From NCBI GenBank assembly GCA_023634235.1, contig JAMKCF010000012.1, forward strand, positions 1,001,501 through 1,065,500: DNA of 64,000 nucleotides, in the 5' to 3' direction. Shown one piece after another: positions 47-60,766 of this stretch (position 1 is its first letter; every line of letters starts with the position of its first letter). The position numbers were made by a program, and so were the translations under genes. The stretch comes from Pisaster brevispinus (Eukaryota; Echinodermata; Asteroidea; Forcipulatida; Asteriidae). The notes under the pieces were generated by a model. It saw only the letters and a program-made list of their open reading frames with translations, had not been told where the DNA came from and did not search any database.

Positions 47-127
47 GAAGGTGAAATAGACATGATTGCAGACACTGTAGTTGCAACAACAGAGAATATC
101 ATTGAAGGAAATGAAGATATCCGAGCG
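47..127 (+). CDS. STX18: Syntaxin-18, penultimate coding exon (gene cut by left edge)
   Basis: Eighty-one bases (27 codons, phase 0 at both ends) read EGEIDMIADTVVATTENI followed by IEGNEDIRA. This is the C-terminal half of the SNARE motif of syntaxin-18, the Qa-SNARE of the endoplasmic reticulum used in Golgi-to-ER retrograde fusion. The block TENI-EGNEDIR is characteristic of the family. The donor is GCG|GTAAGA. The acceptor is taken at CTCCAG|GAAGG. The frame is also open back to position 2, so an upstream acceptor at 15 (CACAG) is a possible alternative. The preceding exons, including the N-terminal domain, lie left of the window. Confidence 0.88.
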
Positions 128-1040
<913 letters not shown>

Positions 1041-10766: not shown

Positions 10767-10920
10767 GGCTGGATAGCTCAGTTGGTAGAGCGCCGGTACG
10801 TTAATCCGGAGGTCGTTGGTTCAAGTCCCGCTCCAGTCAATTTTTCTTTGTTCAAACCCAAATTAATTAAAAATTTACCCAGTCAGTTTCCCTTGTGGTT
10901 TATTACTTGATATTTAAATT
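10767..10920 (+). repeat. tRNA-derived SINE, copy 1
   Basis: 10767-10838 folds as a tRNA-like head. The 7-bp acceptor stem pairs GGCTGGA with TCCAGTC, the D arm is TAGCTCAGTTGGTAGAGC (A box), the anticodon-loop region is ACGTTAA (GTT, as in tRNA-Asn) and the B box is GGTTCAAGTCC. The T stem has a mismatch. The same non-tRNA tail, CAATTTTTCTTTGTT, follows the second copy at 48031. A further tail CCAGTCAGTTTCCC...TGTGGTTTATTACTT recurs at 40188. A shared tail makes a SINE more likely than a functional tRNA gene. Confidence 0.7.
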
Positions 10921-46190: not shown

Positions 46191-46741
46191 GCTTCCTAAT
46201 CACCACCCTGATACCGGTACCGGTGCCTGCTCATTTGCATGTTTAATGAAGTAAATAAAGTAAAAAGTAAATTAAATAAACAAATTAAAAGCTTTCTTAA
46301 CCACATCAAGGACAACCACCACCACAACATAAAAAATAAGTCCGGTACGATTGATTCTTCCTTAAGTTTTTGATAAGCCATTCTTTTTGCATTTCCTTTA
46401 AACAAAAAAAGCGATAACCCTAGAAATTTGTCCCGTACCAATAGTGCACAGCACGCAAGATAATGCAGCGGATGGGTTTCCCCGAACTAGCAAACAGTGA
46501 CCGTGAATTATTTTACAGGGGAAGCTTTAGAGTAACCTGGTATACGTAACCATCCGGTAAAAACACTGATGACGTCGCATCCTATGTGGTTCCCGTTGCT
46601 ACAGTACACGATCGATCATTATTAGTTCATAGTATTTGCGATTCGGTGACAATCGTCGATCACCGACCGTCGATTTTTAGAACGCTGCGTGAAGTTGCCG
46701 TCACTCCACCGAGTCCAGTACTACATCCGAGCTGATCGTGA

Positions 46742-46808
46742 TGACTCACTGTAGAACCTACTTTTCCACGCCCCTTTTAGAAACCGAGCAACGCGTACAG
46801 TATATAAA
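46742..46808 (+). promoter_or_regulatory. Core promoter of gene A (AP-1 site and TATA box)
   Basis: A perfect AP-1 element TGACTCA (46742-46748), a CACCC/KLF-type CCACGCCCC (46766-46774) and TATATAAAG (46800-46808) precede the start codon. TATA places transcription start near 46830, leaving a 5' UTR of about 150 bases. A CRE-like TGACGTCG is at 46570-46577. Inducible cytokine genes commonly have TATA plus AP-1. Function here is inferred. Confidence 0.55.
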
Positions 46809-46982
46809 GAGAGATCAAACAGTTAGATTTCTATAATCAGCCAATAGCTCAAAGTTGTCGGTCCTGCTTGACTAGCAAGCCACGCTCCAAGAATTAGCAG
46901 TACCCTACACAAGTTGATCGGGAATTATACTTCAGTAATAATTGTTAATCGAGATTTGACATCACTCAGCTTTCTTTCAGAG

Positions 46983-47031
46983 ATGGATCCCAGCAAATTG
47001 GTAACTTCGAGGTGCATGGGGCACATTTTGG
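46983..47031 (+). CDS. Gene A exon 1 (start and n-region of signal peptide)
   Basis: ATG (46983) encodes MDPSKLVTSRCMGHIL and one base of a glycine codon, followed by GTAAGT. A very short first coding exon ending in phase 1 is the usual layout in IL-6-family genes. The lysine/arginine-bearing start leads into the hydrophobic core encoded by exon 2. Confidence 0.8.
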
Positions 47032-47719
47032 GTAAGTAGCCGTTGAAAACACCAGTCATCTTCAAGCCATAAATTAGTGATAACTTTCACTGCAGTTTCG
47101 TTGTGTGTATAACCATTCCTAAGTATCTTTGATTACTGTGCGGTTTAACTGAAAATTGCTCTCAATCCCTCTCTTTAGCATTCATTAAATTTCAATACTT
47201 TTTCAAATTTCTAAGTCAGCGTTTTTTTACCGAGCTCAACATACACTCTAGTTCTTAAAATCTATATACTGTATAAAGGGGTATTTTGTACTGATCTCCT
47301 TTGAGTGATAATGTCAATTTTTTATTTATTTTTTTTGTACTGTGGAAAATAAAGGAACCTCGAAACTTCAACCTTGAAACTTATGATTTTGTTGAAGTAA
47401 TTGTACAGCATCAGTGATTGGGAACAGTCGCTTACTGAAAGCAGGTGGTATTTGGGGAAAGTGCACTTCTCTTACCAACATTCCCAAACTCAAACCAAGG
47501 GTAAAACCAAATGGTATTTTTTATCCAGATGCAATTTTTACGTCTATTATATATTTTATTTTAAAGTACTTTTACTGCCTAGATTTTATAGTTGTTATTG
47601 TGAAGCGCTTTGGAATATTTTCTTTACATAAAGTGCAATAAATGCATTTTATTATTATTGTTATTATTATTGTTGTTATTAAACTTCCTTTTGATCTTGG
47701 TTGCTATTTTGGTCTACAG
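47032..47719 (+). other. Gene A intron 1
   Basis: GT-AG intron of 688 bases. Its 3' part (about 47575-47690) reads GAAGCGCTTTGGAATA...AAGTGCAATAAATGCATTTTATTATT plus an (ATT/GTT)n run, the kind of 3' tail left by a truncated LINE or SINE. Confidence 0.6.
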
Positions 47720-47913
47720 GTTTGTACAGCATACTCGTCATATTTCTCGGTGTGATTGCCTCAATCAGTGGTTTTCCAACTGGATCAGTTATAACACAAG
47801 CCAGCTTACCTGACGGGGACAAGTCTTCACCTGACGGCCCATCACGCCCATCTGTTCTCGGCATTTACGCTGGTGATTTAAAAAAAAACCTCAACTCGCT
47901 TTGTGAAGAATTC
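47720..47913 (+). CDS. Gene A exon 2 (signal core, spacer, helix A)
   Basis: Completes the glycine codon, then encodes LYSILVIFLGVIASISG (signal-peptide core, predicted cleavage near G34-F35), a spacer with PDGDKSSPDGPSRPS, and helix A (VLGIYAGDLKKNLNSLCEEF). The exon stops exactly at the end of helix A in phase 0 (GAATTC|GTAAGT). As I recall, CNTF and CT-1 genes also break at the end of helix A. The acceptor is GTCTACAG. Confidence 0.82.
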
Positions 47914-48368
47914 GTAAGTTTATCATTGTATAAATCTGAACAACCCATCGTCTTGACTTCCTCTCACTGTAATGATTGAAATCGCACCACGAACAAAGAT
48001 ATTGGCAAAATAGGAAAACCGCCGAAATAGGGCTAGTAGCTCAGTTGGTAGAGCGCCGGGACGTTAATCCAGAGGTCACAGGTTCGCATTCCGCTCTAGT
48101 CAATTTTTCTTTGTTTAACCTAAAATGGTTGAACTCGTTGGCACCATAATAATCCAATGTCACAACCACACTTAATTTCGGTTCTAAGCAGCATCATTTC
48201 CTGTACCAACTTTATGTTCCATAGTAGGATTCACCAAATACAAACTGTACGTAACCGACTCATCTTTTTTTGATTAACATACTTTATTTCCACTTAGCAA
48301 CTAAGTTTTCGCATGTGCTGAGAAAAAAACCTGCAGATTTTAATAGCAGATTTTCTTAATCCCACCAG
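47914..48368 (+). other. Gene A intron 2, with tRNA-derived SINE
   Basis: GT-AG intron of 455 bases. It is mostly occupied by SINE copy 2 (48031-48120) in the sense orientation. Confidence 0.75.
48031..48120 (+). repeat. tRNA-derived SINE, copy 2
   Basis: GGCTAGTAGCTCAGTTGGTAG, GAGCGCCGGGACGTTAATCC, an AGAGGTC variable region and a CAGGTTCGCATTCCG B box are followed by GTCAATTTTTCTTTGTTTAA, the same tail as at 10838. Mispairing in the stems argues against a functional tRNA. Confidence 0.7.
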
Positions 48369-48650
48369 TCCCAAAAGCGATTCCACGACTGGGACGATCC
48401 ACACCCTCTCTACGACCCAGTACGGAGCAAACTCCCAGATATCAGCGAACTCCTTCCCAACATAATCTTATCAAGTGAAGATATACCGACTAGGATGTGG
48501 ATTCACTACCGGATTCTCCACGCGTTTAACCGCTCAATGGATAACTTCAGATTTGACGAGAGTCAAAACAACGCAAGCTTCAACTTCGGGACAAGGTTTG
48601 ATGAGTTGCAAAATAAGATTGAACAAGTCTTAGGTGGGATACTTCAAACG
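48369..48650 (+). CDS. Gene A exon 3 (AB loop, helices B and C)
   Basis: Ninety-four codons, phase 0 at both ends. The AB loop (FHDWDDPHPLYDPVRSKLP) is followed by helix B (IPTRMWIHYRILHAFNRSMD), a loop with a sequon (NNAS), and helix C (TRFDELQNKIEQVLGGILQT). The acceptor is CCCACCAG and the donor is ACG|GTGAGT. Gene B has the same order of segments, but there the AB loop and the B-C block are split by an extra intron. Confidence 0.85.
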
Positions 48651-49942
48651 GTGAGTTTGTCTTTACCCCCCCCCCCCCTCACCACTCTAGTACCAATAAC
48701 TTGCCCTTTTCCAACTTTATAAAGCGATTGACCACCGAGAAAAATCTTGCTCGAGAATGAGTTTACCAGCCAAAATACCCTTTGAAGCACGTTGCTTCTT
48801 TTTCTTCTTCTTGTAACTAAATTGGTAAAGACACATTTGATCAGTAGATTCTTAAACAAGGTCCTGATGTGGGATCTATAGCAAGTAGCGCCCGACATAA
48901 GGAAATAATTTAAAAAGTGGAAGTTGAAAACAAATTCAATTTTTGGGGTTCCAATCTGTTTATTTGAACCAATATCAAACGGCAGTTAGCGATGTTTTGA
49001 ATTCACAAGCATAAATATTTCGACCTATATTAGGCATGAATGGTCAACCGACATTTGACAACGTAACAGACAGTGACCGGTCTATATCCGTCGGAATAAA
49101 TGAGACCAATTATTTATAACCTCCGATTGCGACAAACAATTCAACCCACATGTCTCCGACTATATTAACACAAAAACAACAACTCGCAGGTCTGAAGGCA
49201 CCACCTCAACCGGAAGTTAAAAAGACCGGTCATGACACCATTGTAAACCTCTCTGAAACTGCCTTCTTTAAAGCAATTTACATCAGTCAATTTCTGCTGA
49301 ATATTAATCTGGAAAAATCTGCAACTTCCTCAAAAATAAACCGTGTATGTAATACTTTAAGTGTACTTGAAGTGTTTCGCAAACAGTAAACCGACATTGC
49401 AATACAAATGTTTGTTGTCTTCTCGTTGCAAAATTAATCAAACCCAAACGTAGAGTTCACAAACCAGGAAAAAACGTTGGCAAATCAACTTTTGGCTACG
49501 ATTCTAGAAAAATATCCCTGTGTGGCGAGTCTAACCGCACGCTACTTAGAGCCGAATGATTGTTTTTAATGTGTTCGATGTCGGGGTTCATACGGGTCAA
49601 ATTGGCACCGGCAGTCCGTCTCATATCAGGTTAAAAATGAGGTACATCCTCTGAAATTTATTGGTGGTTAGTAAGTATAGAATATGATTACGCACGTGGG
49701 TGAAATCGGGCGTTACTGCCGGTCTCTGAAGGCCACTTTCAGACCTTTTTAAGAGTTCTTCCCATTGCGGAAAATTATACCGCAATGTGTTTTTATTATT
49801 TATTTTATTTTATTTTAGGGGATATAATTGTAACTAAAAAAACGCAATCACCTTCCTGCCTCGGGTTGAAGCACTTATTAAATATTACACAACATTGACG
49901 ATTTAACTAATCCTTTAAATTATTTTCCATATCGTCTTGCAG
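48651..49942 (+). other. Gene A intron 3
   Basis: GT-AG intron of 1,292 bases. It starts with a C-run (48665-48679). I see no repeat family or exon in the rest. Confidence 0.7.
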
Positions 49943-50119
49943 GCTCACGACAGAGGCTGGGAAGAGAACGAAAGCGTCACAGTAACGCACTATCTGGATG
50001 ATGTTTTCAAGACAGTATATAATATAGACATGTTAAGAAACCTTCGGGCTTATACAGTCCTGTCTTTTTTTGTTCAGTACACGTCGATACTTAATACTGA
50101 TGTTCAACGCCTTCGATAA
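49943..50119 (+). CDS. Gene A exon 4 (CD loop and helix D)
   Basis: Fifty-eight codons plus TAA. The CD loop region has AHDRGWEENESVTVTHYLDD. Helix D is IDMLRNLRAYTVLSFFVQYT followed by SILNTDVQRLR. V214, L215, Y221, D228 and V229 occupy the positions of V, L, W, D and L in the last helix of CNTF. The protein stops right after the helix, like CNTF and CT-1, which have only short tails. The acceptor is CGTCTTGCAG. Confidence 0.85.
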   Translation, partial: AHDRGWEENESVTVTHYLDDVFKTVYNIDMLRNLRAYTVLSFFVQYTSILNTDVQRLR

Positions 50120-52369: not shown

Positions 52370-52480
52370 GTTTGTTTGTTTGTTTGTTTGTTTGTTGGGG
52401 TGTTTGTTTGTTTGTTTGTTGGGGTGTTTGTTTGTTTGTTTGTTTGTTTGTTTGTTTGTTTGTTTGTTTGTTTGTTTTTG
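52370..52480 (+). repeat. (GTTT)n microsatellite with GTTGGGGTGTTT interruptions
   Basis: About 110 bases of GTTT units interrupted twice by TTGGGGTG. The three overlapping open frames here (repeating CLFV) are a by-product of the tetranucleotide and are not genes. Confidence 0.95.
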
Positions 52481-60363: not shown

Positions 60364-60485
60364 CTACAATAACATTTTCAAACAAGTGGAGGTTTATAAA
60401 CTTTTAACTCATGAAACACATTGTAAAGAGAAAGTATATTCATTAAGAAAACATTAGCAGGTAATTTAAAAATACAAGTTGCGAT

Positions 60486-60766
60486 TGTTTGTTTGTTTGT
60501 TGTTTATTTGTTGTTTGTTTGTTGGGGTGTTTGTTGGTTTGTTTGTTTGTTTGTTTGTTTGTTGGGGTGTTGGGGTGTTTGTTTGTTTGTTTGTTTGTTT
60601 GTTTGTTTGTTGGGGTGTTTGTTTGTTTGTTTGTTTGTTTGTTTGTTTGTTTGTTTGCTTGTTTGTTTGTTTGTTTGTTGGGGTGTTGGGGTGTTTGTTT
60701 GTTTGTTTATTTGTTTGTTTGTTTGTTTGTTGGAGGGGGTGTTTGTTTGTATGTTTGTTTGTTTTT
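60486..60766 (+). repeat. (GTTT)n microsatellite with repeated GGGGTG interruptions
   Basis: About 280 bases of GTTT units broken at least six times by TTGGGGTG, once doubled (GGGGTGTTGGGGTG). All three + frames are open only because of the repeat. Confidence 0.95.

Follow-up and report, generated by a model that had tools for sequence, protein, structure and literature searches.

The locus examined here raises the question of whether a sea star genome encodes a helical cytokine related to vertebrate IL-6, G-CSF, LIF, and CNTF. The window, a stretch of 64,000 nucleotides of Pisaster brevispinus (C12:1001501-1065500 of a 549.7-Mb assembly of 512 contigs), contains a four-exon gene, hereafter gene A, which a sequence-only reading had labelled a CNTF/cardiotrophin/CLCF1-type cytokine. 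The analysis suggests, with a probability of about 0.6, that the product of gene A is a secreted sea star cytokine of the long-chain class I helical type, sharing common ancestry with vertebrate IL-6, G-CSF, LIF, and CNTF; its subtype is unproven. This is the best reading because of the fits of helices A and D, the intron positions, the structural superpositions, and the presence of a gp130-like receptor gene in the same genome. The observations comprise an open and spliceable gene model, a signal-like start, the helix A and D fits, the intron phases, and, elsewhere in the genome, the receptor gene together with what is probably a JAK gene and an exon resembling STAT.

Gene Model of the Candidate Cytokine

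The features of gene A are listed below, with helix limits taken from a low-confidence structural model unless given as a profile fit.

46801..46807 (+): TATA-like box TATATAA, about 180 nucleotides 5' of the ATG; a sequence match only
46983..47031 (+), 49 nucleotides: exon 1, coding part, with the start codon and the beginning of the putative signal peptide, followed by a phase-1 intron
47720..47913 (+), 194 nucleotides: exon 2, with the signal core, a linker, and most of helix A (modelled 62-83); last residue F81, phase 0
48369..48650 (+), 282 nucleotides: exon 3, with the end of helix A, the AB loop DPHPLYDPVRSKLP, helix B (modelled 120-147), and most of helix C (modelled 154-179); last residue T175, phase 0
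49943..50119 (+), 177 nucleotides with the stop: exon 4, with the end of helix C, the CD stretch, and helix D (modelled 211-232; profile fit 205-233)

Joined, the exons give 702 nucleotides, that is, 233 amino acids and a stop codon, with GT-AG borders at all three introns and intron phases of 1, 0, and 0. The start codon is the first in-frame ATG downstream of an in-frame stop at 46869, and the encoded N-terminus has a signal-peptide-like hydrophobic core at residues 20-30. The only cysteines are Cys11, in the signal, and Cys78, in the mature part; N-glycosylation sequons (NxS/T) occur at 135, 149, and 184. The last helix carries the pattern V214-L215-x5-Y221-x6-D228-V229. The four in-phase exons, the signal-like start of a 233-residue protein regarded as secreted, the single mature cysteine, and the VL-x5-Y-x6-D-V pattern of the sequence-only reading were all found again, with unchanged coordinates. 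By sequence, gene A is single copy: a genome search at E<=10 returned five matches, four of them its own exons; the remaining one, at E 9.95 and with three stops, is probably a chance match.

Directly 5' of the start codon, at 46970-46982, lies a good acceptor-like site (TTTCTTTCAG), so that an intron in the 5' untranslated region is possible. Intron 2 holds a tRNA-like stretch at 48030-48102 (GGGCTAGTAGCTCAGTTGGTAGAGCGCC...), seen by eye and not called by ARAGORN, that is probably a tRNA-derived short interspersed nuclear element; a similar stretch lies in an intron of the receptor gene described below (L012:2964-3030).

Helix Profiles and Sequence Comparison

A Pfam search with the gene A protein retrieved no family at E<=10, with HMMER filters that discard most weak matches, and sequence searches matched no known protein; human CNTF, LIF, and CLCF1 likewise fail to retrieve one another by sequence search. 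No robust pairwise similarity was found between gene A and LIF, CNTF, CLCF1, or CT-1. Comparison was also made helix by helix. The helix-A profile was built from the end of helix A in CNTF, LIF, CLCF1, and CT-1 and anchored at the intron places of CNTF and LIF. Slid along gene A, its best of 208 positions puts the anchor after F81, which is the site of the second intron of the gene, although the intron position was no input to the score. The helix-D profile fits best at 205-233, the same register as that of the sequence-only reading.

The joint score, which requires helix A to precede helix D with room between, was equalled by 7 of 3000 shuffles. With database-verified letters only, it was equalled by 96 of 20,000 shuffles, by 33 of 4252 open-frame chunks, and, where shuffling preserved the hydrophobic pattern, by 296 of 20,000 shuffles. 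In the 3000-shuffle version, gene A (8.0) scores above human IL-6 (0.75) and below human G-CSF (15.2), whose helix D fits the same profile. Helix B and C profiles gave no discrimination in gene A, and ungapped helix D scores were mostly unremarkable, the best being that against CLCF1 (score 15, with 57 of 2000 shuffles as good).

These comparisons bear on whether gene A could be a true member of the LIFR-binding CNTF/CT-1/CLCF1 branch, with a receptor complex that includes a LIFR-like chain. Gene A resembles LIF, CNTF, CLCF1, and CT-1 in size, in the hydrophobic register of helix D, and, by eye, in the character of the AB loop, which is like that of CLCF1; the best helix D score against CLCF1 and the anchor at the CNTF/LIF intron place point the same way. 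However, FxxK at the start of helix D marks the LIFR-binding members of the IL-6 family (CNTF, CT-1, CLCF1, LIF, and OSM), and gene A has M205-L-R-N208 there in the best-fitting register. WxxR, seen in the letters of CNTF and CLCF1 and present also in CT-1, is replaced by Y221-T-S-I224. Gene A also carries an additional intron where helix C ends, one not known from LIF or CNTF, G-CSF exceeds gene A in the joint profile, and just one of at least three receptor-domain matches in the genome lies over the cut-off. Membership of this branch is thus quite unlikely, and gene A was not filed there because both motifs are absent, although it may still work like such a member. A secreted helical cytokine of the long-chain class I kind stands as the best reading, whereas the narrower CNTF/cardiotrophin/CLCF1 assignment is not supported, given the missing motifs, the lack of a Pfam match, and the better fit of G-CSF.

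Predicted Structure and Intron Layout

AlphaFold2 was run on the joined protein without relatives, giving two all-helical models with mean predicted local distance difference test values of 48.6 and 49.7 and predicted template modelling scores of 0.36 and 0.40. At this low confidence, the models show six helical stretches and give only a partial check on the four helices of the sequence-only reading. Foldseek gave no match at E<=0.001 for the first model. With VIA-align, 21 helical cytokines stood among the 50 matches listed for the second model, eight of them G-CSF entries; the scores were 9.5 for grass carp IFNa, 8.8 for CNTF, 8.5 for G-CSF, 8.4 for placental lactogen, and 7.8 for IL-11, followed by prolactin (7.7), LIF (7.3), leptin (6.5), and growth hormone (6.0). 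The CNTF superposition covers 93 residues at 2.6 A (model 60..176 against CNTF 66..180), and its end agrees with the register proposed from the sequence. For the first model, the 50 matches listed held six helical cytokines, including IFNa (10.2), G-CSF (8.1), prolactin (8.0), and IL-6 (7.0), with no CNTF or LIF among them. Bacterial Wzc chains score 8.6 and 8.4 in VIA-align. An interferon, not CNTF, heads the lists for both models, which was counted against the CNTF/CT-1/CLCF1 label. All cytokine superpositions lack helix A, and therefore have no bearing on an up-up-down-down topology. On these models, the superpositions lend weak support to a helical-cytokine arrangement over other folds and choose no subfamily.

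In the second, low-confidence model, helix A ends at 83 and helix C at 179, and the phase-0 introns fall two and four residues earlier. In IL-6, G-CSF, and growth hormone, the first intron is in phase 1, and helices A and C are each interrupted shortly before their end by a phase-0 intron; of these two phase-0 introns, LIF and CNTF have only the helix A one. Gene A has both, with none before helix B, and its first intron is in phase 1, as in the long-chain class I genes of vertebrates. The phase-1 first intron and the pair of phase-0 introns, one close to the end of helix A and the other close to that of helix C, are common to gene A, IL-6, and G-CSF, and the one at the end of helix A is common to gene A, LIF, and CNTF; gene A differs from IL-6 and G-CSF in lacking the intron before helix B and in having one mature cysteine where they have two disulphides. 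The exon layout is intermediate between the IL-6/G-CSF/growth hormone and LIF/CNTF layouts.

A fast-evolving secreted helical protein with no kinship to cytokines would be an alternative source of a helical model. This is unlikely, as the helix-A anchor coincides with an intron; the register found for helix D, the phases of the introns, and the proportion of cytokines among the superpositions listed also argue against it.

A gp130-like Receptor Gene and Probable Signalling Genes in the Same Genome

A long-chain class I cytokine would be expected to act through a class I receptor bearing WSXWS and through JAK and STAT, and a genome search for the IL-6-receptor binding domain gave at least three matches, of which the one over the cut-off lies on contig C29. 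The gene there runs in phase through nine exons (C29:226625 to ~237300) and encodes 625 amino acids from the first cytokine-binding domain onward; its 5' end was not found when reading along the locus. The predicted protein contains CFSRDSFDITCEW, WSSWS, a fibronectin III domain, a membrane span, and a Box 1-like ILKPMPS, with several YxRL motifs and no YxxQ in its tail. Pfam matches over the cut-off were fn3 (1.6e-15), EpoR_lig-bind (1.9e-10), and IL6Ra-bind (1.6e-7), with LIFR_D4 slightly under it. Among the best 60 of 81 PDB matches, gp130 came first (1.5e-22), followed by LIFR, IL-12Rb2, CRLF1, and the prolactin receptor. Judged by its sequence, this gene is a gp130-like class I cytokine receptor.

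A locus on C16 combines a pseudokinase-like IVHGNISAKNVLV exon with a kinase exon bearing HRDLAARNV, a combination typical of a JAK. The kinase piece is over the Pfam cut-off and the pseudokinase pieces are under it, and a JAK-specific profile peaks at 19.6 bits against a cut-off of 26.1; the locus is probably a JAK gene. STAT_bind has a single match in the genome (28.3 bits against a cut-off of 27), read as a STAT-like exon.

In the mechanism proposed, the gene A protein would be secreted and fold as a four-helix bundle, whose helix A/C face (site II, by analogy) would engage the cytokine-binding module of the gp130-like receptor. Two receptor chains would be brought together by the cytokine, and JAK at the Box 1-like motif would be activated, followed by STAT. 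Expression, fold, secretion, binding, and signalling of gene A, and its role as the ligand of this receptor, are what we infer from the observations above. The proposal that gene A is a cytokine of the IL-6/LIF/G-CSF lineage outside chordates, with an intermediate exon layout and acting on the gp130-like receptor, is tentative and falls somewhat short of an even chance.

Evidence Against the Class I Cytokine Reading

Several observations weigh against a long-chain class I cytokine or against the narrower label. The first concerns the helix-A profile: with G-CSF and IL-6 added, the F81 position drops to rank 2, which was counted against the CNTF/CT-1/CLCF1 label. Others concern the gene model, which could be wrong or unexpressed, either as a chance chain of open frames or through a different first exon. 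A crude splice and open-frame scan, using assumed splice frequencies, gives an equal score (3.44, segment from 46001) to a chain that begins with a different and non-secreted first exon (46239-46344) and has exons 2-4 in common. Codon usage, tested with a single receptor gene as the training set, was not significant for gene A and is neutral, the fractions of stop-free control windows scoring as high being 0.31, 0.18, and 0.18 for exons 2, 3, and 4; the exon 2 donor also has weak exonic bases (log-odds -0.33). The gene A chain scores 3.4 in the splice scan; when the 5.5-kb segment was shuffled 400 times (first-order), a single shuffle attained 3.3. The chain ranks 7 among 76 real segments giving a model, and a score of 3.6 was obtained for one segment on the minus strand of the window. 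The shuffle result, the signal-peptide-like start, the TATA box, the upstream in-frame stop, and the cytokine-like fits of helix A (exon 2) and helix D (exon 4) make a faulty model very improbable.

The remaining points concern the family. IFN lambda 2/3 genes have a phase-1 first intron and the others in phase 0 (PMC2654155), so that class I cannot be told from class II by intron phases alone. The class II-type profile Interfer-bind lies slightly under the cut-off on the C29 receptor, and the STAT_bind match contains two stops. Because of these three points, the class I reading and its IL-6/LIF/G-CSF-lineage form were weighted down and an interferon/IL-10-like (class II) helical cytokine was weighted up. 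The latter is nonetheless decidedly unlikely. The 1-0-0 phases of gene A, like those of IFN lambda 2/3, are unlike those of fish type I interferon genes, whose introns are in phase 0 (PMC4929537); the profiles that helices A and D fit are those of class I, the only class for which profiles were built; the C29 receptor matches class I best, no search aimed at class II receptors having been made; and the confidence of the gene A models is low. A long-chain class I helical cytokine is still the reading we prefer.

Other Features of the Window and Assembly

Elsewhere in the window, ARAGORN called a tRNA-Asn (gtt) at 10767-10839 (+), and long GTTTGTTTG-type microsatellite arrays at 52370-52475 and 60470-60760 give rise to spurious open frames. 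On C12, the window has genes for a HECT ubiquitin ligase and a homologue of syntaxin-18 on its upstream side and for a GH38 alpha-mannosidase downstream; syntaxin-18 and MAN2B2 both lie at human 4p16. On the minus strand of L017, a tandem protein-level repeat (NFDKNAGLTPCEIFNFGP...) occupies a spurious or repetitive frame.

The mitochondrial contig (C512) reads best with the echinoderm code, with AAA at Asn, AGA at Ser, and ATA at Ile. In COX1, AAA occurs at conserved Asn positions such as those in GGFGNWLIP and LTDRNINTTFFDP. The frames after COX1 read as ND4L, COX2, ATP8, ATP6, COX3, ND3, and ND4, an echinoderm order, and COX1 is preceded by tRNA-Leu(-), tRNA-Asn(-), and tRNA-Gln(+), an arrangement that fits sea stars. 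The mitochondrial evidence by itself thus indicates an echinoderm and probably a sea star.

Relation to Known Systems and Significance

An IL-6-like molecule or activity was reportedly described in the sea star Asterias forbesi by Beck and Habicht in 1996. Its sequence is not known to us, and that gene A is linked to it is a hypothesis. In wasting sea stars, raised 'interleukin-6 receptor' contigs were reported in a study that cites the 1996 work (PMC4503460). In the literature searched, with most subscription journals outside its scope, no echinoderm IL-6-family sequence was described. According to a 2012 analysis, no system of cytokine receptor signalling is apparent in the purple sea urchin (PMC3296744).

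Two invertebrate systems are comparable by description only. Amphioxus GHl is a divergent class I helical cytokine of 208 amino acids from an invertebrate deuterostome, although it is a cephalochordate gene filed near growth hormone; the same review reports several further type-I helical cytokine genes in amphioxus and none detected in acorn worms or sea squirts (PMC9010856). Drosophila Unpaired and Domeless likewise pair an invertebrate ligand with a gp130-like receptor, JAK, and STAT, but in an arthropod (PMC13203501). The same source, a 2026 survey covering 18 metazoan phyla or subphyla and accepting BLAST matches at E<=1e-5 and 30% identity, reports IL-6 family cytokines in vertebrates only and traces the receptor to molluscs (PMC13203501). 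Invertebrate gp130-like receptors outside insects therefore have no known ligand. Human CNTF, LIF, and CLCF1, compared with one another in PDB, would fail that cut-off.

If gene A is such a cytokine, the IL-6-type ligand-receptor pair would be older than the split between echinoderms and chordates, and gene A would be a molecular candidate for the sea star IL-6-like activity of 1996. Exact exon coordinates for a ligand candidate, with a gp130-like receptor gene in the same genome, allow the age of the IL-6 system to be tested directly, and a signalling family usually called vertebrate-only may be older.
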